From positions 1 to 22,422 of IMG/VR virus record IMGVR_UViG_3300013093_004065: a stretch of DNA of 22,422 nt. One strand, 5' to 3'. The position numbers were made by a program, and so were the translations under genes. Below, piece after piece: positions 26 through 22,316 of this stretch. Below the pieces are notes generated by a model. That model searched no databases, had not been told where the DNA came from, and saw only the letters and a program-made list of their open reading frames with translations. The first letter of the stretch is position 1, and every line of letters begins with the position of its first letter. This DNA is from a virus.

Positions 26-1678
26 ATGATTACAGTTGTAAAACGTAATGGTGAACGAGTACCACTCGACATCAGCAAAATACAGAGACAGGTAGCACAC
101 GATTGTAAGGGCATTGATGGAGTGAGCCCCAGTATGATCGAAATCAAGGCCCAGATAGAACTACATGATGGCATGAGCACTAAAACCATAGACGAGCTCT
201 TGCTCAAGGCCATGGTGGACCTCATAGACGAAACAGAAAATCCAGAAATCAACAATGTAAACTATCAGTATGTGGCTGGGCGTCAACGTGTGAGTATGTT
301 ACGCAAAGAAGTCTACGGCGAGTATGATCCTCCCAAGTTGTATGACATCATCAAGACCAATGTGTCAGCAGGTATGTATACAGCAGAACTATTAGATTGG
401 TACACAGAAGATGAGTGGAACATCATCGACTTGTTCATAGATCATACCAAGGACGAAGAATATACCTATGCCGCTATAGCACAATTAGCAGAGAAGTATC
501 TGGTGCAGAATCGTGCCACGGGACAGATCTACGAAACACCACAGGTACGTTATGCTGTGGCAGCCGCCACAGCCTTCCATGCTGAACCAAAAGATCGGAG
601 ATTAAAATATGTTAAAGAATATTACGAGTGTGCCTCAGATGGACACTTTACTCTTGCAACACCAGTATTGGCTGGGTTGGGCACTACCACTAAGCAGTTT
701 TCAAGTTGCGTACTTATCAGCTCAGATGACACGTTGGATTCTATATTTGCCGCAGGAGAAATGATGGCCAAGTATGCTAGCAAACGTGCTGGCATAGGAC
801 TAGAGATTGGCCGTATACGTCCTCTCGGCGCCCCTATACGCAATGGAGAGATCAAGCACACAGGTATGATACCATTCTTAAAGAAATGGTTTGCCGATCT
901 TCGTTCATGCTCACAAGGTGGTATCCGTAATGCATCATGCACAGTAACGTTTCCTATATGGCATGCTCAGTTTGAAGACCTTATCGTGCTGAAAAACAAT
1001 CAAGGCACCGAAGAGACACGTGTCCGCCAGATGGACTACTCAGTGGTAGTCAACAAGATGTTCTGGAATCGCTATCGACTGGGCCAGGACATAACTCTGT
1101 TTGATCCACACGAAGTTCCAGACCTGTACGAAGCCTACTATAGAGACAGCCAGGATTTCGAGCAGTTGTATCTAGAATATGAAACACGCACAGACATACA
1201 TAAGAAGGTGTTGTCAGCTGAAGAAATGTTCAAGAATGGCATCTTGAAAGAACGTACTGATACGGGACGTATCTATCTGGTCAATATCGACAATGTGATC
1301 AATCAAGGACCTTTTGATACCGCAACTGATCCAATCTATCAGAGTAACCTGTGTTTAACTGGCGATACCACGATTCAAATCATGAATACAGATGATACTG
1401 TTCAATCAATATCTCTTGCCAGCTTTGTTGAACTATATGAATTTGGAGCAATGACCGGTGTTAAAGTTAGAAGTTCGGATATTTCAACAGGCGCTGTTAC
1501 TTGGAATACGGTAAGTGACGCGGCCAAAACCGCTACAGTAACAGAATTAATCGAAATTGAAGATGAATCGGGTAAAATTATTAGATGTACACCTGATCAC
1601 CAAATATATACAAAGAATCGTGGATATGTTAAAGCCAGCGAGTTATTAGAAACAGACGTGTTATGTGTAGAAAGTTGA
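26..1678 (+). CDS. nrdA: Ribonucleotide reductase alpha subunit, N-terminal part, fused to N-half of a split intein
   Basis: This gene encodes the first 442 residues of the class Ia ribonucleoside-diphosphate reductase large subunit, followed by a 108-residue intein half. The enzyme makes dNDPs for phage DNA synthesis. An ATP-cone begins at the N-terminus (VVKRNGERVPLD). Cys228 in KQFSSC corresponds to the reducible active-site cysteine C225 of E. coli NrdA. The extein stops at YQSNL, immediately before the position of the catalytic thiyl-radical cysteine (E. coli C439), and intein Cys1 (residue 443) follows. The stop after LCVES is therefore the end of the N-intein and not a nonsense mutation. 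The ATG at 26 has AAGG six bases upstream and gives the normal NrdA N-terminus. Function needs protein trans-splicing with the product of 2652-3752, giving a mature protein of about 774 residues. The family and intein assignment is firm; splicing activity is inferred. Confidence 0.95.
   Translation: MITVVKRNGERVPLDISKIQRQVAHDCKGIDGVSPSMIEIKAQIELHDGMSTKTIDELLLKAMVDLIDETENPEINNVNYQYVAGRQRVSMLRKEVYGEYDPPKLYDIIKTNVSAGMYTAELLDWYTEDEWNIIDLFIDHTKDEEYTYAAIAQLAEKYLVQNRATGQIYETPQVRYAVAAATAFHAEPKDRRLKYVKEYYECASDGHFTLATPVLAGLGTTTKQFSSCVLISSDDTLDSIFAAGEMMAKYASKRAGIGLEIGRIRPLGAPIRNGEIKHTGMIPFLKKWFADLRSCSQGGIRNASCTVTFPIWHAQFEDLIVLKNNQGTEETRVRQMDYSVVVNKMFWNRYRLGQDITLFDPHEVPDLYEAYYRDSQDFEQLYLEYETRTDIHKKVLSAEEMFKNGILKERTDTGRIYLVNIDNVINQGPFDTATDPIYQSNLCLTGDTTIQIMNTDDTVQSISLASFVELYEFGAMTGVKVRSSDISTGAVTWNTVSDAAKTATVTELIEIEDESGKIIRCTPDHQIYTKNRGYVKASELLETDVLCVES
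1352..1675 (+). other. N-terminal half of split intein (NrdA site)
   Basis: The 108 residues after the extein begin with Cys1 in block A (CLTGDTTIQI) and carry block B with the TxxH motif (CTPDHQIYT), followed by NRGYVKASEL. These are the Hint-fold splicing motifs of an N-intein. The segment is more AT-rich than the flanking nrdA sequence. Its length and its end match the N-halves of split inteins described from fractured phage genes in marine metagenomes. No endonuclease domain lies within it; an endonuclease gene follows as a separate reading frame. Confidence 0.93.
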
Positions 1679-1711
1679 TTACTAACATAAATAGTATTAC
1701 AGAGACTAATT

Positions 1712-2659
1712 ATGTATAAACAACTTTATAAAGAAATTATTGATATTGCCAAACTAGAGAAGCGAAAGAAAAGTTCTGGAGTGTATTATGAATTACATCA
1801 CGTTGTTCCAGAATTTATGTTTAAGAGTAGGAAAAGAACAGGTCCAGCTGGCCACTTAGATGGTAATCCTAATTCAGTGGATAATCTTGTACTATTAACT
1901 TTTCAAGAACATCTAATGGCGCATTATTATCTATATGAGATATTAAAAGATACACGATACGGATACTCAGCCGGGTCAGCATTACAATTTTTCTTTATTA
2001 AAGCAACGGGTAGTCATATTAGACAACGCACATTATCCAAAGTTGATAAAGAATTTCTAGATAAAATGGCTCATTTACGCGAGATTGGGATTGCAAGTAT
2101 TTCAAAAGCACGAACTGGGAAGATGCCAGTTGTTGATGCCATTACTAGAGAAAAAATTGGGTCAATGCCGGTAAACCATCCAAGAGTGTTATCGGGGGAG
2201 TGGGTTCACCATAGTAAAGGAGTGAAGCAAACTTGGGAATCTCGATCCCAAGTCGGAGAAAATAATGGAAATTATAAAGAAATGACAGCCCAACATTTGG
2301 ATCGTATTTTTCAATGCGTTGGAAAATCATTAATAGATGATACGCATTTTTCTGTTAAAAACTTTTCAAAAAATATTAAACTTGAATTTACTGAATTTAG
2401 AAAAATATCAATCAAGTGGGTAATGAATAATCTGTCTTCAATTGAAAACTTAGTTGCTCAATATAATCACAGAATGAATACTAATATAGTGTATGATCCC
2501 TATTATCGAAGTGCCTCGCAAAGAAGCAAGGCATCTATACAGAATCAAATGTATGCTTGGGTAACTGATGGAACCAAAGATTTACGAATATTAAAAATTG
2601 ATATGAGTGATTTCTTAAATACAAATACAGAATACAAAAATGGAAGAATAAATGCTTAA
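1712..2659 (+). CDS. HNH homing endonuclease lying between the two halves of the split intein
   Basis: The 315-residue protein has an HNH core near its N-terminus: H29-H30 in YELHHVVP, then N58 in SVDNLVLLT, H67 and H71 in FQEHLMAH. This is the usual phage pattern HHxxP...NLVxLTxxEHxxAH. The C-terminal two thirds are basic and not recognised; they probably bind DNA. The gene sits exactly between the N-intein and C-intein genes and overlaps the C-intein gene by 8 bp, so it occupies the place an internal endonuclease domain has in a contiguous intein. A late-promoter-like ATAAATA lies in the 33-bp gap upstream (about 1687-1693). Composition is clearly AT-richer than nrdA. It probably cleaves intein-less nrdA alleles and drives homing of the whole insertion; this is inferred from position. 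Confidence 0.85.
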   Translation: MYKQLYKEIIDIAKLEKRKKSSGVYYELHHVVPEFMFKSRKRTGPAGHLDGNPNSVDNLVLLTFQEHLMAHYYLYEILKDTRYGYSAGSALQFFFIKATGSHIRQRTLSKVDKEFLDKMAHLREIGIASISKARTGKMPVVDAITREKIGSMPVNHPRVLSGEWVHHSKGVKQTWESRSQVGENNGNYKEMTAQHLDRIFQCVGKSLIDDTHFSVKNFSKNIKLEFTEFRKISIKWVMNNLSSIENLVAQYNHRMNTNIVYDPYYRSASQRSKASIQNQMYAWVTDGTKDLRILKIDMSDFLNTNTEYKNGRINA

Positions 2660-2753
2660 GATAAAAAGAATTACCGTAGAACCGACTGATGTTTATGATA
2701 TTACTGTGCCAGAAACTGAATGTTTTTTTGCTAATGACGTATTGGTCCATAAT
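2652..2753 (+). other. C-terminal half of split intein (NrdA site)
   Basis: The 34 residues contain block F (VYDITVPETECFFAND) and block G (VLVHN), with the terminal Asn that cyclises and the penultimate His. Cys35 follows as the +1 nucleophile. The small size and independent Met start are typical of natural split inteins. It must pair with the N-half encoded at 1352-1675. Confidence 0.93.
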
Positions 2754-3752
2754 TGCCAAGAGATCCTACTACCAACCAGACCTTTCCAACGTATTGAAGA
2801 TCCGGCGGGACGCATAGCGTTATGTACACTGGGATCTATCAACTGGGGTGCTTTCAATAATCCACAGCAGATGCGCAAGGCCTGCCGTGTGTTGGTACGC
2901 AGTCTTAGTAATCTACTGCAATATCAAGACTTCTTGTCAGTACAGAGCAAGCTGGCCAATGAAGACTTCGAACCACTAGGAGTGGGTATTACCAATCTAG
3001 CCTATTGGCACGCCAAGCGTAGTTTCAAATATGGAACATCCGAAGCACTCGCCGAAGTCAAGCGTTGGATGGAACACCAGGCCTACTTCCTTACCGAGAT
3101 GAGTGTAGAACTTGCCCAAGAAAGAGGGGCCTGTAAGCGTAGCGAATACACACACTACGGTAAGGGAGTATTCCCCTGGGAACGCCGCTCTGCCGGTGTT
3201 GACGAACTCGCAGACTTCACACCAGTGATGGATTGGGAACCTCTGCGTGAGCGTATGAAGCAGTATGGTATCCGTAATGCCACACTCATGGCCGTGGCTC
3301 CTGTAGAATCCAGCTCAGTTGTTCTAAACTCTACTAATGGTATCGAGATGCCAATGGAGATGATATCTGTGAAAGAATCTAAAGCAGGATCATTCGTCCA
3401 GGTAGTGCCAGAGTATCGCCGACTGAAGAATCGCTATCAGCTCATGTGGGAACAGACAGATTGTGTAGACTATCTCAAGACAGCCGCTGTGTTGGCTGCC
3501 TATATCGATCAGAGTATAAGTACTAATACATTCTATTCGCCGGCGCATTTTGCAGGTGGTAAAGTTCCGGGAACTCTAATCGCTAAGAATTTGATGCTGG
3601 CCTATAAATGGGGTCTGAAGACAATTTATTACTCACTTATAAACAAGGTTGGTTCTAAAAATGTATTAACTACTCAAACTGATAGTTTAGTAAGTGTTGA
3701 ACCTGTTACAATATACGAAGACGACGAAAATTGCGAGGCCTGCAAGCTCTAG
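2652..3752 (+). CDS. nrdA: C-half of split intein fused to ribonucleotide reductase alpha subunit, C-terminal part
   Basis: Residues 1-34 form the C-intein, ending in VLVHN, and Cys35 is the +1 extein residue. After splicing it restores NLCQEI, equivalent to N437-L-C439-x-E441 of E. coli NrdA, so the splice nucleophile is also the catalytic radical cysteine. Cys58 in IALCTL matches E. coli C462, the partner of the redox pair. Tyr326-Tyr327 in KTIYYS are the radical-transfer tyrosines (Y730/Y731). The C-terminal CEAC (361-364) is the swinging dithiol reduced by glutaredoxin, with shorter spacing than in E. coli. The start at 2652 overlaps the endonuclease stop and has GGAAG just upstream. The last 220 bp or so are AT-richer than the rest, next to an inserted endonuclease gene. 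Confidence 0.94.
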   Translation: MLKIKRITVEPTDVYDITVPETECFFANDVLVHNCQEILLPTRPFQRIEDPAGRIALCTLGSINWGAFNNPQQMRKACRVLVRSLSNLLQYQDFLSVQSKLANEDFEPLGVGITNLAYWHAKRSFKYGTSEALAEVKRWMEHQAYFLTEMSVELAQERGACKRSEYTHYGKGVFPWERRSAGVDELADFTPVMDWEPLRERMKQYGIRNATLMAVAPVESSSVVLNSTNGIEMPMEMISVKESKAGSFVQVVPEYRRLKNRYQLMWEQTDCVDYLKTAAVLAAYIDQSISTNTFYSPAHFAGGKVPGTLIAKNLMLAYKWGLKTIYYSLINKVGSKNVLTTQTDSLVSVEPVTIYEDDENCEACKL

Positions 3753-3776
3753 GGTATGATAAATACAGGTGCCGAT

Positions 3777-3818
3777 CGCGATACTGATAATATCCACCGG
3801 CTCTATAACTGTGAGGAG
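3777..3818 (+). promoter_or_regulatory. Conserved 5' leader of homing endonuclease gene (copy 1)
   Basis: This 42-nt segment contains CGCGATACTG, ATATCCA, CTCTA and the ribosome binding site GAGGAG at spacings identical to the segment at 6077-6118 on the other strand. By eye about 32 of 42 positions match without gaps. Similarity continues to the start codon and first codons (CAGCA, then ATGTATTTAC). It lies between the nrdA stop and the GIY-YIG start, so it is an untranslated leader. Function is unknown; a promoter, a translational control element or a homing-associated element are all possible. Confidence 0.7.
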
Positions 3819-3827
3819 TTACAGCAA

Positions 3828-4481
3828 ATGTATTTACATACTATCCCAGCCTATGTCTATTATATTAGGCATATACCAACAGGCAAGTTTTATTACGGAT
3901 TTCGATCTGCACATATAAATGAAAATAGGCGTCCGATTGACGATTTATGGAAGACATACTTTACATCTTCTGTTAAAATAAAAGAATTACGAGAACAAGA
4001 TGATACCTTTGAAGTAAAAATAATTTATGAAGATCTAGATGTAGAAGAAGCATATTGGGCAGAACAAGACTATATAAAACAACATATCAATGATCCGCTA
4101 TGTCTAAACAAGTATTACATTGATAAAGAGAAGGATCAAAAAATATTCAGTATGGCAGGTAAAAGTCATACCGAAGATTCGAAATTAAAAATGAAAGGCA
4201 GGCTTCCCTGGAATAAAGGAAAGAAAATTCCAAGAGGAATTCCAAGTTGGAATAAAGGTATTCCAACTCCTGTTTCTGTAAAAGAACTGATTAGAGAAAA
4301 AACTAAAGGCATTAAAAAGTCCGAAGAAACTAAAGAAAAAATGAGAAAAACAAAATCTAAAGAACACGCACACAATATATCAGTAGCGGCATTACAACGT
4401 CCCAGAACTCCGTGTGAAGTTTGCGGAAGGTTGATAACTAAAGCAAATATCGAAAATCATAGGAAAACACATTATGAGTAA
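3828..4481 (+). CDS. GIY-YIG homing endonuclease between nrdA and nrdB
   Basis: The 217-residue protein starts with a GIY-YIG-type nuclease domain: YVYYIRH stands for GIY and KFYYGFR for YIG including the catalytic Arg, followed by DLWKTYFTSS, a motif common in phage members. The middle holds NUMOD3-like DNA-binding repeats (GRLPWNKGKK and PSWNKGIPTP). The C-terminus has a likely zinc finger, CEVCG...HRKTH. The ATG at 3828 was chosen over the in-frame ATG at 3756 because GAGGAG lies nine bases before it and because the same leader and start context precedes the second GIY-YIG gene. Its stop overlaps the nrdB start by 8 bp. It is AT-rich compared with nrdB. It probably targets the nrdA-nrdB junction of related phages. 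Confidence 0.85.
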   Translation: MYLHTIPAYVYYIRHIPTGKFYYGFRSAHINENRRPIDDLWKTYFTSSVKIKELREQDDTFEVKIIYEDLDVEEAYWAEQDYIKQHINDPLCLNKYYIDKEKDQKIFSMAGKSHTEDSKLKMKGRLPWNKGKKIPRGIPSWNKGIPTPVSVKELIREKTKGIKKSEETKEKMRKTKSKEHAHNISVAALQRPRTPCEVCGRLITKANIENHRKTHYE

Positions 4482-5577
4482 AGCACAATACGACATCTCA
4501 AAAAAAACAAATTATTTGAAAAGGAAGATGTTCTTAGACCCAGAAGGCCCTGTAACTGTACAGAGGTTTGAAGAGGTTAAATATCCTAAGATTCAGGCCT
4601 TTGAAACCTTAGCCCGTGGATTCTTTTGGGTTCCAGAAGAAATCAGCCTTACCAAAGACAAGATCGACCACAAGGACTCATCTGATGCTGTAAAGCATAT
4701 CTTTACTAGTAATCTACTGCGCCAGACAGCATTGGATAGTATACAGGGCCGTGCTCCAGCACAGGTATTCTCGCCAGTTATCAGTATCCCAGAATTAGAA
4801 GCATTGGTTTCAAATTGGAGCTTCTTTGAAACAAACATACACTCAAAGAGCTACAGTCACATCATACGTAATGTCTATGGTGTGCCTAAAGATGAATTTA
4901 ACAAGATACACTATACCAAAGAGATCGTAGACATGGCCGCCAACATCGGCAAGTATTATGATCAGCTACATGCCATCAACTGTGCCAAAGAACTAGGCGA
5001 CACAAATGTCAGCGAAGCACATCACATTAAATCTATCTGGTTGGCACTCAACGCCAGCTATGCTCTAGAAGCATTTCGTTTCATGGTATCCTTCGCAACG
5101 TCATTGGCTATGGTGGAGAACAAGATCTATATCGGCAATGGCAACATCATATCACTGATCCTACAAGATGAGATCTTACACGCAGATTGGACCGCTTGGT
5201 TGATCAACAATGTGATCAAAGATGATGAACGTTTCGTTGCCGCCAAGGCAGAGTGTGAGGAAGAAGTCTATCAGATGTACATGGAGGTGATAGAAGAAGA
5301 AAAAGCCTGGGCTGAATATCTGTTCAAACTAGGTCCTGTTATCGGACTTAATGAAACTATCTTAAAAGATTTCGTAGACTACACAGCATTCACCCGACTC
5401 AAAGAGATTGGCATCAAGTATCAAGGCGAACACCCTAAGTCTAGTCCTATCCCTTGGTTTAACCGACACGTCAACATCAACAAGAAACAATCAGCACTAC
5501 AGGAGACCGAATCGACCAATTATGTCGTAGGTGTCATGAGCGATTCTGTTGATTATGAAGAATTACCAGAACTATAA
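4474..5577 (+). CDS. nrdB: Ribonucleotide reductase beta subunit (class Ia)
   Basis: This 367-residue protein carries the diiron-tyrosyl radical needed by NrdA. By comparison with E. coli NrdB, the ligands are Asp88 (LDSIQGR), Glu119, His123, Glu199 (ALEAFRF), Glu233 and His236 (DEILH), and the radical tyrosine is Tyr127 ([11 protein letters not shown]). Tyr350 near the C-terminus (STNYVVG) matches the radical-transfer Tyr356, and the acidic tail should dock on NrdA. One oddity is that the first metal-ligand pair reads ETNIH, with one residue more between Glu and His than the E. coli ETIH. The ATG at 4474 overlaps the end of the GIY-YIG gene; an internal Met19 is possible, but the longer start gives the usual N-terminal extension. 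Confidence 0.95.
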
Positions 5578-6068
5578 GATTTACACTTACTAAAGTGCCA
5601 TTGCCGCATTTGAGGTAGCCCTCCTGTTTTATTACAATGTGGGCACTCTATTACAGGCTTTGGTACTTTATTTTTTCCTATCTTAGTTTTTCTATTATTT
5701 TCTAACCATTCAGGCGTTTGTTTTCTTCCTAAGTTAGGGCTAGGTTTACCTTTTAATAATGCCGAATGTCGTTGTTTACGCTCATCAGTCCATGTCCTGC
5801 CTTCTGCTCCTTCTCCGCCGTCCGTCATGTTAGCTAGTATACCCGTTCCTAAGTCTTTACGTCCGTACCATCTCACTAATCTACGTTCAATAGCTAGTGC
5901 TCCGACTTCGGATAAGTTATTTTCTACAATAACTATTAGTTCTTTAGATTTAGGTGGTTTAACTTGTCTGCCGTACTTGTAGTAGGCTCTGGTCCCAGTA
6001 CCCTTTCCGATATAGTAAGGTGTACCGTCTGTTCTTAGATAGGCGTATACGTAAAAGCGTAAATACAT
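5553..6068 (-). CDS. GIY-YIG homing endonuclease, antisense after nrdB
   Basis: The 171-residue protein opens with a GIY-YIG nuclease domain ([10 protein letters not shown] then [12 protein letters not shown]), with the expected Arg and a Glu-containing helix ([11 protein letters not shown]). A NUMOD3-like stretch ([20 protein letters not shown]) follows, and a C-terminal zinc finger (CPHC...WHFSKC) closes it. It is transcribed opposite to nrdB and overlaps its last 25 bp, so it is probably expressed from its own signals. GAGGAG sits eight bases before the ATG at 6068, inside a leader shared with the other GIY-YIG gene. It probably homes into the region downstream of nrdB in related phages. 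Confidence 0.88.
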
Positions 6069-6076
6069 TGCTGGTG

Positions 6077-6118
6077 CTCCTCATAGCATTAGAGTAGTTG
6101 GATATGTCCAGTATCGCG
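6077..6118 (-). promoter_or_regulatory. Conserved 5' leader of homing endonuclease gene (copy 2)
   Basis: Read on the minus strand, this 42-nt segment holds CGCGATACTG, ATATCCA, CTCTA and GAGGAG at the same spacing as 3777-3818. The intervening bases differ, so the blocks look selectively kept. It ends at the ribosome binding site of the antisense GIY-YIG gene. Confidence 0.7.
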
Positions 6119-6131
6119 AACTACACTAATA

Positions 6132-6162
6132 TTTTTCAAAGTATTTGATATACTTTGAAAAA
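6132..6162. repeat. Perfect 13-bp inverted repeat, possible operator or hairpin
   Basis: TTTTTCAAAGTAT and its exact reverse complement are separated by five bases (TTGAT). The repeat lies between the divergent GIY-YIG and glutaredoxin genes and covers the -35 region of the glutaredoxin promoter. It lacks a GC-rich stem, so a repressor or activator site is more likely than a terminator, though a weak bidirectional terminator is possible. Confidence 0.6.
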
Positions 6163-6190: not shown

Positions 6191-6418
6191 ATGTCAAAAG
6201 CGATAGTATGGAGCAAAGATGCTTGCCCCTATTGTGATCAGGCCAAGAACCTGTTAAAATCTAGAGGTATTGAGTTCGAAGAAAGAAATGTCAGTACAGA
6301 TTGGACTAAAGAACAGTTGTTAGAGGCAGTGCCAAATGCACGTACAGTTCCACAGATATTCCTAGATGGAGAACTGGTAGGTGGATTCACAGAATTACGG
6401 GCTAGACTAAATGGATAA
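6191..6418 (+). CDS. Glutaredoxin
   Basis: This 75-residue, single-domain glutaredoxin has the dithiol active site CPYC at residues 13-16, the cis-proline motif TVPQIF and the C-terminal GGFTEL glutathione-binding turn. It would reduce the C-terminal CEAC dithiol of the phage NrdA and so belongs functionally with nrdA and nrdB, from which it is separated only by the antisense endonuclease gene. Its length is normal for phage and bacterial glutaredoxins of the NrdC/GrxC type. The next gene overlaps its 3' end by 8 bp, which suggests one transcript. Confidence 0.93.
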   Translation: MSKAIVWSKDACPYCDQAKNLLKSRGIEFEERNVSTDWTKEQLLEAVPNARTVPQIFLDGELVGGFTELRARLNG

Positions 6419-10002: not shown

Positions 10003-10006
10003 CTAA
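9998..10006. repeat. Left 9-bp inverted repeat flanking the HNH gene
   Basis: TTCGACTAA here has its exact reverse complement TTAGTCGAA at 10491-10499. The two enclose the HNH coding region almost exactly. A further related GGTTTCGAC lies at 10523-10531. The repeat includes part of the T-loop-like sequence, so the pair may mark element boundaries. Confidence 0.45.
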
Positions 10007-10482
10007 GCCTGTTTTACCATAAACCCACCATTTGTGACACTACCTCTTAAACAAGCGTTTCCAAAGTTGTTAGGATTATAGCCTCGGTCTAAACACCATT
10101 GGCGTAATCCTTCAACTGTTTCAGTAGTACCATCTGGGTGTGTAATCTCGTATAGTTTACCGTTCCAAGTTTTCTTGCCCTTACCTGCCCTTACTTCTTT
10201 CATCTTCTTACTAGCCCTAGCTCTTTGTTCTGGATCTTTCCAGCGAAGATTAGATTTTGCCGCACCTTTACGGCCTCCCTCTATCATAGACTGTTTTGCG
10301 GCATCAAAATTAGCATCAAGTTTAGCCAATCCTTGCCAGGCAACATAGTCCTGCCAGTTGCCGTGTTGTTCATATAGTAGTCGGTGTGCCTCGGCGTGTT
10401 GCTCTATAGTTAGTTCAACTAGATTAGAAGGATCGTCTGACCCGCCTAGGTACTTTGGAACGATGTGATGTTTATGTAGCAT
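10003..10482 (-). CDS. HNH homing endonuclease, antisense, next to the tmRNA
   Basis: This 159-residue protein begins with the HNH signature MLHKHHIVPKYLGG, SNLVELTIEQHAEAH, in which paired His, Asn and His residues form the beta-beta-alpha metal fold. A basic middle part (KKMKEVRAGKGKK) follows. The C-terminal domain (LYEITHPDGTTETV, then LRQWCLDRGYNPNNF) is a DNA-recognition module common in phage endonucleases. The ATG at 10482 is preferred because the fold starts there; longer in-frame starts at 10533 (ATG) or 10542 (TTG) would add residues encoded by an inverted repeat and the tmRNA promoter. No clear ribosome binding site is seen. Its stop codon directly abuts a tmRNA T-arm fragment, so its target is probably the tmRNA gene. 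Confidence 0.85.
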   Translation of the reverse strand: MLHKHHIVPKYLGGSDDPSNLVELTIEQHAEAHRLLYEQHGNWQDYVAWQGLAKLDANFDAAKQSMIEGGRKGAAKSNLRWKDPEQRARASKKMKEVRAGKGKKTWNGKLYEITHPDGTTETVEGLRQWCLDRGYNPNNFGNACLRGSVTNGGFMVKQA

Positions 10483-10490
10483 AATATTAT

Positions 10491-10499
10491 TTAGTCGAA
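10491..10499. repeat. Right 9-bp inverted repeat flanking the HNH gene
   Basis: TTAGTCGAA is the exact reverse complement of 9998-10006. Overlapping it, GTCGAAACC (10494-10502) is inverted relative to GGTTTCGAC at 10523-10531, so it can also form a hairpin around the -35 element of the tmRNA promoter. Confidence 0.45.
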
Positions 10500-10514
10500 A
10501 CCGAGTAAAAACTC

Positions 10515-10543
10515 TTGACAATGGTTTCGACATACTATACAAT
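10515..10543 (+). promoter_or_regulatory. Strong sigma70-type promoter of the tmRNA
   Basis: TTGACA (10515-10520) and TACAAT (10538-10543) lie exactly 17 bp apart. Transcription would begin near 10550, just before the acceptor piece. The flanking inverted repeat GTCGAAACC/GGTTTCGAC encloses the -35 and might be an operator or a homing remnant. Confidence 0.7.
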
Positions 10544-16422: not shown

Positions 16423-17163
16423 ATGATCCCAAAGCAATTATTGAATTCTACAGGAATCCATCGGACACACGATACCTATCAAAATATGCTCGATCACTAT
16501 AGGGCATTACGAAACCCGGAACTTTTAGAAAAAACAATTAAAACATTAGAGACAGAACTTAACTATCCCTTTTATAGATTTTTCAGTAATTATGGTACCG
16601 GTATCGGCGAAACTATGGAAGAAGTCTCTGCCCAAAAATTTATAGACATTATTCCAAAAAAAGATGGTAAGAAAAAATCCAAAGTATATGAAAATTATAA
16701 CAAACAGCATAATAAAAAATCTAGCAATTATGATTTTTTATTTGTAAAAGATGGAATAATTAAAAGTGGAGAAGCTAAAGTAATACGAGCCGCTGAAAGT
16801 AAGCCAGTACAAAATAATAAAATTTACGAACTACCTTCATCATTAGAAGAACGAGCTTTAACTTATTCTGAAAAAAATAAATCCGGAAATCAATCATTTC
16901 AGCAAACTAAAGCAGAACTATTTGATTATTTACTAGGTATTGTAATATATGCAGATCAGGTTGATTTTTATTTGGTACCATCTGATGATATCAAATCTGG
17001 AAAACTTAAGATCATCAATCAACATGCAGGTGCTATTTTAGAAGATGGGAGTACTAATGAAGGCCATTTATCTGTTAAAGATTTAGACTCTTATAAAATA
17101 TTATCAGTGTATTCTGAAAAAGAATTACTAGAGGCTGATAGCATTAATAAATATATTTCATGA
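16423..17163 (+). CDS. Probable type II restriction endonuclease
   Basis: The 246-residue protein contains a PD-(D/E)XK-like nuclease core: Asp104 in NYDFLFV and Glu117-x-Lys119 in GEAKV, with the hydrophobic strands expected around them. It overlaps by four bases an N6-adenine methyltransferase gene, the usual layout of a type II restriction-modification system. The specificity is not recognised. Composition is very AT-rich, unlike the genes on either side, pointing to recent transfer. It has its own consensus promoter. On a phage it could cut competing phage or host DNA lacking the methyl mark. The family call rests on motif plus context. Confidence 0.78.
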   Translation: MIPKQLLNSTGIHRTHDTYQNMLDHYRALRNPELLEKTIKTLETELNYPFYRFFSNYGTGIGETMEEVSAQKFIDIIPKKDGKKKSKVYENYNKQHNKKSSNYDFLFVKDGIIKSGEAKVIRAAESKPVQNNKIYELPSSLEERALTYSEKNKSGNQSFQQTKAELFDYLLGIVIYADQVDFYLVPSDDIKSGKLKIINQHAGAILEDGSTNEGHLSVKDLDSYKILSVYSEKELLEADSINKYIS

Positions 17164-18656
17164 CAGTTACTTTTAAAGACCTTAATAAAAAGAAAAATCA
17201 ATTAGGTCAATTTATGACTCCGGATGTTATATCACAAGTTATGATAGATAATAATACATACTCCGGTCTTATAATTGAGCCCAGTTTTGGTCTTGGATCT
17301 TTTTTATACAAATTAGAGTCAAAATATCCAAAAAATATTAAGATAGGTATCGAATACGATCCGGAATTGTTTGATCAGTATACTGGATCATCAACTGTGC
17401 TAAACCAATCATTTTATCAATTTCAAATTCCAAAAAATATTAAATTTGATTCAATATCATTTGTTGGAAATCCCCCATATAGGACTCCAGCTTATTCACT
17501 TAAAAGTGAAGATAAAGATCTAATTAAGGAATTAGTTAAAAAATACAAACTAACAGGAGTAAAAGAAGAAGCAATTTTTTTTATTGCGTATGCTGTTAGT
17601 CTTATTGAACAAGCAGATGTTCCTGGGGTTATTCATTGGATATTGCCTAAAACAATTTTTGAAAACAGCAGTAAAGCATTTACTAATTTTAGAAAATTTT
17701 TGAATATACATGCACCGGTTATCGAAATGATCGATATATCTGAGAATTATCCAGATGTAGCACAACCGTTATGTATTGCTAAATTTTTAGTGAATCAAAA
17801 AACAAATACAAACTTAACTGATTCTTTTATATTAAAAGATACTATTACATTTCAAGAAATTTTTATTAAAACGTCGCTAGGTAGTGTTCCTTGCGAAAGT
17901 ATATTGCTCTCATGTAAGGACGAACCATTGTCTAGTTTTAAAGAAAGACTTGAGAATATTTTTCAAAAAAACATCAATATTCGAACTGAATTAAAATATA
18001 ATGGAAAATATCATCTACGAGCACTTAGTGGATCATCGGCTACAGAAAAATTTAAAATTTTAGATTCCTATGTTTCTGAAATAAAAAATACCATCAATGT
18101 TTCTGATTTTTCAAATGACGCTTATTATAAGCCTATTTCTCATAGAACAGAAGTCCGTTGGTATTTTAGACATCCCGGATTGACTAAGGTTAGTTTTATA
18201 TATATAATAAATCCTAATCCAGGTAAATCTTTTTACTTTCCTGGAAATCCTACAAAAACATCAACTGATTATTTTGGATATTGCGAATATGATATAAATC
18301 GAAATAGTAGCCCCGGAGCGAATAGAACTGTTTCTATAGAAAATATTGAAAAAAATATTACTCCAAAATTTAAAAAGTTTTGGCAAGAAAATACAACAGC
18401 GCCGATAACCGAAATTTTTAATTATATATTACATATTAGCAAAAGTAGTTGGTATAAAAATTATAAGTCAAAATATCAAAGATTTTACTTTGGAATACCA
18501 AAAACTTTTGACACCTCTTGGAAACCAGAATTAAATAAATCTTGCCTTAACTGGGATAGTATTATTGAACTAACTGCTTCAGAAATTATTATTTCTACAG
18601 AGCAAACATCTATCAATCTTTTAAATTCTCTTTTCATCGAAGAATATTCTTCTTGA
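17160..18656 (+). CDS. N6-adenine DNA methyltransferase (gamma type, type II R-M)
   Basis: The 498-residue enzyme has motif X-like LGQFMTP (residues 15-21), motif I EPSFGLGS (40-47) for S-adenosylmethionine binding, an acidic motif II residue in IEYDP, and catalytic motif IV NPPY (104-107). This is the gamma order with a C-terminal target-recognition region of about 300 residues. It methylates adenine in an unknown sequence and protects DNA from the nuclease encoded upstream. The start at 17160 overlaps the nuclease stop (ATGA), so translation is coupled; expressing the nuclease first is unusual but seen in some systems. It is as AT-rich as its partner. The next promoter overlaps its last codons. 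Confidence 0.92.
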   Translation: MTVTFKDLNKKKNQLGQFMTPDVISQVMIDNNTYSGLIIEPSFGLGSFLYKLESKYPKNIKIGIEYDPELFDQYTGSSTVLNQSFYQFQIPKNIKFDSISFVGNPPYRTPAYSLKSEDKDLIKELVKKYKLTGVKEEAIFFIAYAVSLIEQADVPGVIHWILPKTIFENSSKAFTNFRKFLNIHAPVIEMIDISENYPDVAQPLCIAKFLVNQKTNTNLTDSFILKDTITFQEIFIKTSLGSVPCESILLSCKDEPLSSFKERLENIFQKNINIRTELKYNGKYHLRALSGSSATEKFKILDSYVSEIKNTINVSDFSNDAYYKPISHRTEVRWYFRHPGLTKVSFIYIINPNPGKSFYFPGNPTKTSTDYFGYCEYDINRNSSPGANRTVSIENIEKNITPKFKKFWQENTTAPITEIFNYILHISKSSWYKNYKSKYQRFYFGIPKTFDTSWKPELNKSCLNWDSIIELTASEIIISTEQTSINLLNSLFIEEYSS

Positions 18657-20521: not shown

Positions 20522-21346
20522 ATGAAGGTAAGTTTGGTAAGTGATTTACATCTCGATATTTCTGGATACTGCGATCTCCCAGGTGGGGAGGTTTTAATTC
20601 TCGCCGGTGACGTCTGCGAAGCTCGCAAGCTCACCACAGAATTCCACAGTACTAAAACTCTATACCCAACCGGAGAGCCAAATCGGGAATTTCCCTGTAG
20701 TGAATTCTTCCGTGTAGAATGTGCCAAATATGACAAGGTATTCATGGTCATGGGCAATCACGAGCACTATGGTGGCAAACTCTACAAGACCTATGATGAA
20801 CTCCTAAAGATCTTGCCAGCCAACGTGACCCTGCTGGAAGACCAGGTAGAAGAATATCGTGGAGTCATGTTCATGGGCTCTACCCTATGGACCGACCTCA
20901 ATGGAGGCGACCCAATCACGGCCATGCATCTCAAGATGGGCATGAATGACTACAGGGCAATCACAGAATTCTATCCTGATAGAAGCGTCTGGCACAAGCT
21001 GACGCCGGAACGTACTGCTGAGATACACTTCAAGACCAAACAGTATTTCAAGACCATATTGGAGTTGAACCGTGACAAGCCCTTCGTTGTGATTACTCAT
21101 CACTCTCCCAGCTTCCAGAGTGTAAACGAGAAATATCGGTATGACACCACTATGAATGGTGGATACTCTAGCAACATGGATCAGTTCATATTAGACAATC
21201 CCAACATCCATACTTGGGTATTTGGTCATATGCACGATCCGGTTAGTTATTATATCGGTGAGACTCGTGTTGTCAGTAACCCACGAGGTTATGTAGGCTA
21301 TGAAGATACCCATCAATTCGATCCTGGATTTTCATTTACAGTATGA
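20522..21346 (+). CDS. Calcineurin-like metallophosphoesterase
   Basis: The 274-residue enzyme shows all metal-binding motifs of the family: SDLHLD (residues 7-12), LAGDV, MGNHEHY, THHSPS and GHMHDP. It would hydrolyse a phosphoester, for example a nucleotide, a nucleic-acid end or a phosphorylated protein; the substrate cannot be read from sequence. Such enzymes are frequent in T4-like phage early regions. An insertion of about 20 residues between the second and third motifs (STKTLYPTGEPNREF region) is notable. It overlaps the following small gene by four bases (ATGA) and shares the promoter at 20219. Confidence 0.9.
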   Translation: MKVSLVSDLHLDISGYCDLPGGEVLILAGDVCEARKLTTEFHSTKTLYPTGEPNREFPCSEFFRVECAKYDKVFMVMGNHEHYGGKLYKTYDELLKILPANVTLLEDQVEEYRGVMFMGSTLWTDLNGGDPITAMHLKMGMNDYRAITEFYPDRSVWHKLTPERTAEIHFKTKQYFKTILELNRDKPFVVITHHSPSFQSVNEKYRYDTTMNGGYSSNMDQFILDNPNIHTWVFGHMHDPVSYYIGETRVVSNPRGYVGYEDTHQFDPGFSFTV

Positions 21347-21603
21347 CCACAACTGTCCGACTCTACTGGAATGAGATAAACAATCCTGCCAACGAGCATG
21401 TCATGTGGAATGAGATCTTGGCACGCACCTTTGAACAGTTCGGACTGCCCGGTGATAGATACATGACCAATATAGATACAGATTGGATGGACTGGCATTT
21501 TGTCAGTGAAAAAGATGCTACTATGTTTATATTGGAACATGGAGGGGATGTCATACCTGAGTCTCAGATCACCGTGGAGTTTGTAGGGAGCCTGATGAGA
21601 TGA
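21343..21603 (+). CDS. Small protein, member 2 of the tandem paralogue family
   Basis: The 86-residue protein has no recognised domain. Its middle ending WHFVSEKDATMFILEHGG fits the shared family motif. After it come about 20 extra residues (ESQITVEFVGSLMR) absent from the others. The start and stop overlap the neighbours by four bases each, so it is translationally coupled. Confidence 0.7.
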   Translation: MTTTVRLYWNEINNPANEHVMWNEILARTFEQFGLPGDRYMTNIDTDWMDWHFVSEKDATMFILEHGGDVIPESQITVEFVGSLMR

Positions 21604-21851
21604 GCAGGCCCGTGAGATTAACCGAAAGCCAATGGATGAAGATCTATCACAACATAGCGGCTAATTATCCTCACAGCGTCTTATTGATACGAGACAAGAT
21701 GAGATCGGTCCTAGGATTTACTTCTAGGACTCACCATTGGCATGATCCCGTCTCAGGGTATCGTAGCTGTATTATGCTAGACTTCTATGATGAACCCAAA
21801 CGTACCATGTTTCTGTTGAAATACGGAGATTACCTACAAGATGATCAGTAA
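21600..21851 (+). CDS. Small protein, member 3 of the tandem paralogue family
   Basis: The 83-residue protein ends in LDFYDEPKRTMFLLKYGDYL, carrying the shared motif. The N-terminal half is basic and helical. The start ATG overlaps the stop of the previous gene in ATGA. Function is unknown. Confidence 0.7.
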   Translation: MSRPVRLTESQWMKIYHNIAANYPHSVLLIRDKMRSVLGFTSRTHHWHDPVSGYRSCIMLDFYDEPKRTMFLLKYGDYLQDDQ

Positions 21852-22095
21852 CTACTTATTTCCATCTGAACCTCCACAGGAACTGTTAGATCAGTGCAGG
21901 CTGATAGTGCTGAAAGATCCCCAAAAGATCAAAGAGATAAAATATTGGACCATGGAGAACTGTCATAGTTTCATATGGATGGAAGAAGTCAACACCAGCG
22001 ACGTCAGTCCCATGTATGACGTCTGTTATGGATTTTACTTCTGGGATGACAAGGATATACTGATGTTTAAGATGAAATACGCAGAATGGACATAG
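21841..22095 (+). CDS. Small protein, member 4 of the tandem paralogue family
   Basis: The 84-residue protein ends YGFYFWDDKDILMFKMKYAEW, the clearest copy of the shared motif. The N-terminal half differs from its neighbours. It overlaps the upstream gene by 11 bp and the downstream gene by 10 bp. Function is unknown. Confidence 0.7.
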   Translation: MISNYLFPSEPPQELLDQCRLIVLKDPQKIKEIKYWTMENCHSFIWMEEVNTSDVSPMYDVCYGFYFWDDKDILMFKMKYAEWT

Positions 22096-22316
22096 ACTAC
22101 AGACGACACGGACGCAAATGGGTAGCCGAAGTCTGGGATCAACCCTCGTATAAACTATCTGGTGTAGATTATGCCGTTCCCCTCACAGAATCGATCTATG
22201 AAGAGATCAATCAGTGGTGTATTGACACCCTGGGTTATCACGCTCGTATGGCCTATCATATCTTTCGTTTCGAGAAAGAACAAGATCTGGCCATGTTCTT
22301 GTTGAGGTGGCTATGA
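22086..22316 (+). CDS. Small protein, member 5 of the tandem paralogue family
   Basis: The 76-residue protein ends YHIFRFEKEQDLAMFLLRWL at its exact C-terminus, matching the family motif. Its N-terminal half is charged and aromatic. It overlaps both neighbours (10 bp upstream, ATGA downstream). Function is unknown. Confidence 0.7.
   Translation: MDIDYRRHGRKWVAEVWDQPSYKLSGVDYAVPLTESIYEEINQWCIDTLGYHARMAYHIFRFEKEQDLAMFLLRWL

Follow-up and report, generated by a model that had tools for sequence, protein, structure and literature searches.

The two diverged nuclease genes of the window, by which we mean the whole 22,422-nt stretch analysed, are preceded by copies of an RNA leader for late expression, shared by homing endonuclease genes, that is real, widespread and interpretable. 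In the best reading, which is drawn from likeness of layout, the leader would work like the T4 I-TevI and segB and the mobE leaders, but would constitute one RNA family belonging to unrelated nucleases. On balance, it is probably a portable cassette that serves the free-standing homing endonuclease genes of T4-like phages and provides for their late expression.

The leader pair and its nrd surroundings

The pattern CGCGATACTGNNNATATCCANNNNCTCTANNNNTNTGAGGAG is present exactly and without gaps at 3777–3818 (+) and 6077–6118 (−), as the sequence-only reading had reported, and is separated by 9 and 8 nt from the ATGs at 3828 (+) and 6068 (−), respectively. A scan of the window, which is the entire record, reveals no third copy at up to three mismatches, and 100 shuffles of the window yielded no match, none being expected by chance. 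A covariance model search of the window likewise identifies two elements only, leaders A and B. The strong divergence ascribed to the proteins is also observed, with ORFs A and B sharing 18% identity in the family alignment. While the 42-nt match itself stands, the full conserved element is longer than had been stated, approximately 83 nt, with a 5′ edge located about 20 nt upstream of the pattern and a 3′ edge beyond the start codon (ATGTATTTAC). From 5′ to 3′ it comprises TAAATA, the stems P2 and P2b, the stem P3 with the Shine-Dalgarno sequence, CAGC, and UAUUUA past the start codon, and the first base of P2 lies six nt downstream of TAAATA (Table 1).

Both genes had been read as GIY-YIG. 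For ORF A this agrees with a Pfam match to SegE_GIY-YIG (5e-5; 24 bits versus a curated cut-off of 25), whereas no Pfam match is obtained for ORF B at 1e-3; its assignment draws on the motif YYIGKG and on relatives identified by tblastn, of which some are annotated as homing endonucleases. ORFs A and B are putative homing endonuclease genes that comparison shows to be inserted between host genes. An alternative start of ORF A at the upstream ATG at 3756 was dropped, since in copy B an in-frame stop directly precedes the ATG.

Table 1. Positions in the window of the elements of leaders A and B and of the genes that follow them
Feature	Position	Strand	Evidence
TAAATA, putative T4-type late -10 box of leader A and P1 5′ arm	3760..3765	+	Position before CRC, upstream enrichment, gp23 boxes
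P2 5′ arm GCCGAT of leader A; 3771 is the predicted late transcription start	3771..3776	+	Six nt past the last A of TAAATA
Invariant CRC on one side of the internal loop between P2 and P2b, leader A	3777..3779	+	Leader comparison
P2b hairpin of leader A, GATA-loop-TATC	3780..3794	+	Two-sided changes in 4/4 pairs in A3
P2 3′ arm ACCGGC of leader A	3796..3801	+	Two-sided changes in 6/6 P2 pairs; RNAalifold
P3 hairpin of leader A (CTA..CAG), Shine-Dalgarno GAGGAG at 3813-3818	3803..3824	+	Two-sided pair changes; sequence
TATTTA in codons 2-3 of ORF A, P1 3′ arm	3831..3836	+	Fixed spacing after CAGC
ORF A, putative SegE-like GIY-YIG endonuclease, 217 aa	3828..4481	+	Pfam SegE_GIY-YIG 5e-5
Inserted unit A (leader and ORF), nrdA stop to nrdB start	3753..4481	+	Empty junction in relatives; G+C
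AAAATA, degraded box at the TAAATA place of leader B	6130..6135	-	Alignment A1
P2/P2b hairpin of leader B, GTAGTT..AACTAC	6094..6124	-	Alignment, covariation
P3 of leader B, Shine-Dalgarno GAGGAG at 6082-6077	6071..6092	-	Alignment; sequence
TATTTA past the ATG of ORF B	6060..6065	-	Alignment
ORF B, putative GIY-YIG-like endonuclease of 171 aa (YYIGKG), lying antisense between the nrdB gene and the glutaredoxin gene	5553..6068	-	Motif, tblastn; no Pfam match

The order of genes in the window is nrdA, unit A, nrdB (4474–5577), unit B on the opposite strand, such that leader B is antisense to the nrd operon, and a glutaredoxin gene (6191–6418), the last named by eye and from relatives at the same place. 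Unit A, including its leader, fills exactly the space from the nrdA stop (3752) to the nrdB start and has a G+C content of 0.339 versus 0.416 for the window. We compared junctions in 80 of the 596 loci matching nrdB, a comparison that rests on the nrdA–nrdB junction and the glutaredoxin start. Among these best 80 of 596, the distance from the nrdA stop to the nrdB start is −4 to +15 nt in, for example, L324, L325, L326, L327, L329 and L337, and in L324 and L325 the glutaredoxin gene starts a few nt past nrdB; other relatives carry different inserts at the nrdA–nrdB junction. Because nrdA and nrdB abut in the nearest relatives, the leader belongs to the insert.

Several other features of the window were observed. 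The ribonucleotide reductase large-subunit gene upstream of unit A is distributed over 26–1678, 1712–2659 and 2652–3752, where, by Pfam, the N-part of nrdA ends in an intein N-half and an intein C-half is fused to the C-part of nrdA. Between the intein halves lies an ORF (1712–2659) that reads, by eye, as HNH-like, and the layout of 26–3752 resembles that of a fractured gene in which the halves of a split intein flank a nuclease gene. The sequence CATAAATA at 1686–1693, 24 nt before the HNH-like ORF at 1712, is a possible late box for this ORF, which would then be served by a box without a structured leader. Between leader B and the glutaredoxin gene, a 13-nt inverted repeat, TTTTTCAAAGTAT / ATACTTTGAAAAA (6132–6162), overlaps the site at which leader B has lost its TAAATA box, and is possibly a two-way terminator. 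The model search finds no leader at the HNH ORF at 10003–10542, and thus not every nuclease gene carries one. Two adjoining ORFs at 16423–18656, of which the second contains an NPPY motif like that of adenine methyltransferases, are possibly, as judged by eye, a restriction-modification pair, and small tandem ORFs with similar endings at 21343–22316 (repeat family D3) probably form a local gene family.

Structure of the leader and its spread among nuclease genes

The RNA fold of P2 with its CRC/C loop, P2b and P3 is well supported, as shown by covariation. Alignment A1 contains 82 distinct leaders, derived from 83 with at least 4/6 stem pairs by removal of one duplicate after trimming. On this alignment RNAalifold predicts P2 unaided, with the pair types GC/AU, UA/CG/AU, AU/CG/GC/UA and GC/AU/UA/CG, and the covariation score for P1, P2, P2b and P3 together is 0.244, whereas shuffled controls score 0.079 and slid ones no more than 0.044. 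Alignment A3 comprises 40 leaders, the two window copies and 38 found by the model, of which only L314, as judged by eye, keeps the exact core. Here, two-sided compensation is observed in 10/10 P2 and P2b pairs and the covariation of the whole structure reaches 0.475, compared to 0.148 when shuffled and at most 0.083 when slid. Pairs of P3 around the Shine-Dalgarno sequence also exhibit two-sided changes in the 82-leader alignment, and in G014 and some G002 copies the ATG is located within the 3′ side of P3, before CAGC, with pairing kept. Since the P2 and P2b pairs compensate, the fixed letters GATACTGNNNATATC, which are present as had been noted, are mostly one lineage's version of an RNA hairpin, the sequence of which varies elsewhere. 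The constant parts are CRC facing C, CTA past P2, and CAGC ahead of the start region.

These observations bear on the functions that had been proposed. The claim of a functional element conserved beyond the proteins is supported. The leader includes a promoter-like box and moves with the inserted unit, complete with expression signals of its own. A sequence-specific binding site in double-stranded DNA is not supported, because the stems change freely while pairing is kept. An autorepressor operator as in I-TevI was rejected as well, the stems being too variable and one binding specificity being needed for many families.

The full pattern has 21 exact matches in 20 IMG/VR stretches, all 21 of which precede, by 8 or 9 nt, an ORF that starts MYL and reads as GIY-YIG, in line with the expectation that the motif would sit before homing endonuclease genes. 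A shorter, 16-base core is present in at least 119 viral stretches. Among the matches listed, 83/88 distinct viral core contexts have at least 4/6 flanking stem pairs, formed by many stem sequences; the 5/88 with no stem were taken as chance. In GTDB genomes, the same core occurs in 101 stretches versus approximately 120 estimated by chance, with at least four stem pairs in 14/99 distinct contexts and at least 5/6 in 6/99, and covariance model R2 gives 0 matches in 100 GTDB core loci (748 kb).

Model R1, built from the 82 leaders, finds further leaders that do not carry the original letters, in loci retrieved through protein similarity or adjoining other leaders. When run on whole contigs, R1 detects leaders in 20/22 records, most of which had been chosen for carrying the motif, and a GIY-YIG or HNH type ORF follows each of the 26 sense matches inspected, the 27th row being an antisense shadow. 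Ten leaders are located in G002 (the L136 record, reported as a 155-kb record with 10 copies) and nine model matches in G014 (the L135 record), one of them the antisense shadow; in such multi-copy records (10; 8 to 9), one regulator could time many nucleases. In nrdB loci that were not chosen for a leader, 3/80 carry one (best 80 of 596): those in L376 and L385 precede GIY-YIG ORFs, and L385 and L387, with identical coordinates and score, look like one site. Across 13 named phage records, R2 finds one leader each in Variovorax phage V45v66 (85993–86072) and Pseudoalteromonas phage XG4 (56130–56217) and 0 in the other 11. A blastn search of the consensus leader against named phages returned short chance-like pieces only. 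Rfam (4227 families) contains no family match, the sole match being a chance CRISPR-repeat elsewhere at E 1, and gave none for five further loci.

Taken with the 38 model-found leaders, the 82 leaders give a set of 120, from which repeat rows for sites covered by two loci (for example L135:7026, G014:35339, G002:146396 and G002:150406), the truncated L109:1-46, the weak L144 and L154 and the antisense G014:69983 were left out. An ORF row was obtained for 119 of the 120, with an ORF of at least 60 aa in 115. Motif patterns assign the 119 as 86 GIY-YIG, 22 HNH, 7 other and 4 short, and by eye several of the ORFs that are neither GIY-YIG nor HNH resemble nucleases or remnants. Pfam matches for the 115 ORFs, with overlaps possible, are NUMOD3 (32), HNH (18), SegE_GIY-YIG (13), HNH_5 (13) and GIY-YIG (6). 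The leader of L003 is identical to leader A at 62/63 positions, whereas its protein shares 18% identity with ORF A, indicating that leader and nuclease have been exchanged independently. The control segment looks like an exchangeable part, carried by more than 100 unrelated selfish genes of T4-like phages. In addition, the leaders at L100, L169:9740-9824 and L089:2915-2999 precede very short or broken ORFs, which are apparently decayed homing genes that keep their leader.

Proposed late transcription and sequestration, and competing readings

Position and enrichment make TAAATA a well-supported candidate for a T4-type late promoter box. Among the matches listed, TAAATA is found 15–18 nt before CRC in 78/83 leaders and within 32 nt upstream in 79/83; in the window it is present in copy A and replaced by AAAATA in copy B. 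Within 45 nt upstream of 585 ORFs on the same contigs, leader genes being excluded via a pattern, TAAATA occurs 152 times versus 40 for its reverse complement. Other A/T hexamers tried reach at most 98 in this test, and ATAAAT and AAATAT overlap TAAATA. The gp23 gene is preceded by ACTAAATA in V45v66, by TATAAATA in XG4 and by CATAAATA in X1 (Gp23 matches of 3e-123, 4e-145 and 7e-121, respectively, with a weak late sigma family match too), and in G006 TATAAATA lies ahead of several genes near gp23. The late sigma family phrog_234 is found in 2/22 records, one of these (G005) being without a leader; most of the 22 records are fragments. T4 late transcripts start about six nt past the late box. 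The first base of P2 is a purine (G or A) in 116/116 leaders, and the next positions include pyrimidines.

We suggest that TAAATA would drive late transcripts starting on the first base of P2, such that the mRNA would begin with a paired 5′ end. The RNA, as covariation shows, folds P2, with its invariant CRC/C internal loop, and the upper stem P2b, followed by P3 with the Shine-Dalgarno sequence. In read-through RNA, UAAAUA may pair with the UAUUUA past the start codon to form P1, generating a three-way junction that would hold the ribosome site and the start codon, whereas late transcripts would lack the 5′ arm and hence be translated. The nuclease would thereby be made late, whichever operon it has invaded. 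As comparison shows, the cassette is swapped among unrelated nuclease genes and moves with them.

We consider sequestration by P1 the most likely, but unproven, account of how read-through RNA would be silenced. Leader sets were defined by the anchors found: 114 for accessibility and TATTTA, 116 (103 when thinned) for the first base and arm swap, and 63, 45 and 43 for swap subsets. TATTTA, which is complementary to TAAATA, is located 4–5 nt past CAGC in 109/114 leaders and falls into the three reading frames of 36, 11 and 64 of 111 ORFs, and is therefore not kept for the protein; leaders without TAAATA still keep TATTTA. Longer native P1 arms pair at −12.86 kcal/mol versus −11.68 kcal/mol when swapped between leaders (0/2000 permutations, 103 leaders). 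The result is 1/2000 for 43 less related leaders without the A lineage and weakens to 36/2000 in a looser 63-leader set without that lineage; shared ancestry can add to this signal. Leader A folds into the full three-way junction with a strong P1 (−23.8 kcal/mol, z −2.0), and leader B folds no better than shuffles (z −0.67). By single-sequence folding of the 101/114 leaders with both arms, the probability of core P1 at 25 °C has a median of 0.006 and a mean of 0.21. The six core P1 pairs exhibit no compensatory change in the 82-leader alignment or in A3, and a test for one extra P1 pair shows no association, either outer (52/99, 52.3 expected) or inner (25/99, 23.0 expected). Across the 114 leaders, accessibility of the Shine-Dalgarno sequence hardly differs between the long and late forms (0.465 versus 0.489), and that of the AUG is slightly lower in the late form (0.301 versus 0.327 in the long). 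The case for P1 and sequestration is thus weakened by the lack of core covariation, by the absence of P1 from most single-sequence folds and by copy B being without TAAATA.

These same data lend some weight to a late promoter combined with a protective hairpin at the 5′ terminus, where P2 would stabilise the late mRNA and P3 would tune initiation, P1 having no role and UAUUUA being kept for another reason. A transcript start predicted at the base that opens the stem, which is a purine in every leader, would fit such a hairpin, as would the lack of covariation in the P1 core and the weak P1 predicted in most leaders; but TATTTA at fixed spacing in all reading frames, native P1 arms that out-pair swapped ones and the strong P1 of leader A argue against it, and we regard it as possible, if somewhat unlikely.

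The unpaired CRC..C, CTA and CAGC are invariant even in very diverged leaders, which goes beyond what a plain blocking hairpin would need. On this ground a protein of the phage or the host might recognise the CRC/C loop, CUA and CAG, or the leader might be a ribozyme or switch. Given that Rfam yields no match, we find this quite unlikely. The wider proposal that the constant part of a mobile module is the leader rather than the nuclease, the leader being one RNA, catalytic or recognised in trans by a CRC/C-bound phage factor, that unrelated homing endonucleases repeatedly acquired, is likewise unlikely; if true, one regulator would time many selfish genes per phage, as in the 155-kb record with 10 copies.

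Because the leader sits at one end of the inserted unit, the hairpins might instead act at the DNA level, as single-stranded DNA or as mobile-unit ends recognised in homing. This is very improbable given the exact register with promoter box, Shine-Dalgarno sequence and start codon, and given that differing leader-bearing nucleases occupy differing sites; moreover, the model finds no further such element in the window, and hence none at the 3′ ends of units A and B. Recent duplication or gene conversion of the two genes would account for the closeness of the window leaders in sequence but is scarcely credible with proteins 18% identical, and the motif is found neither at random positions nor solely in recent duplicates, leaders with compensatory changes preceding both GIY-YIG and HNH genes.

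Relation to known leaders of homing genes

Late timing of T4 homing endonucleases is already known from individual leaders. A structured leader retained through replacement of the GIY-YIG and HNH proteins would demonstrate that timing control in homing elements is modular, exchangeable and selected. The leader also provides a sequence tag by which such homing genes, and what is left of them after decay, can be found in metagenomes, and V45v66 and XG4 are named phages that permit direct tests of late control. A literature search found no description of a shared structured leader of homing genes, which, with most subscription journals outside its coverage, is weak evidence of absence; the text of PMC10448857 contains none of the searched terms.

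In the available portions of two papers, late promoters together with RNA structures holding the ribosome site are described for I-TevI, I-TevII, I-TevIII, segB and Aeh1 mobE (PMC2988022, PMC3014915). The leader described here resembles those of T4 I-TevI, I-TevII, I-TevIII and segB, as far as these portions describe them, in having a 5′ late (or middle) promoter and an RNA structure on the ribosome site of transcripts initiated upstream, with late transcripts being without the 5′ arm, as we propose here (PMC2988022, PMC3014915). It is unlike the T4 leaders in sequence, as had been maintained, and R2 finds no leader in the T4 or Aeh1 genomes, but the layout, a late box within the 5′ arm and a structured Shine-Dalgarno region, is shared with I-TevI, segB and mobE. 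Aeh1 mobE is similarly described in these portions as a free-standing, nrd-linked nuclease gene with a late promoter and a hairpin on the ribosome site (PMC3014915, PMC2988022), yet it is an HNH gene with its own hairpin. In T4 gene e (lysozyme), too, an inhibitory RNA structure carries the late promoter within its 5′ arm; gene e, however, is a non-mobile host gene with another structure (PMC3014915). In contrast to the T4 leaders, which are individual hairpins as described in the portions available, the leader of the present genes is one branched structure with conserved loops that is common to GIY-YIG and HNH genes.
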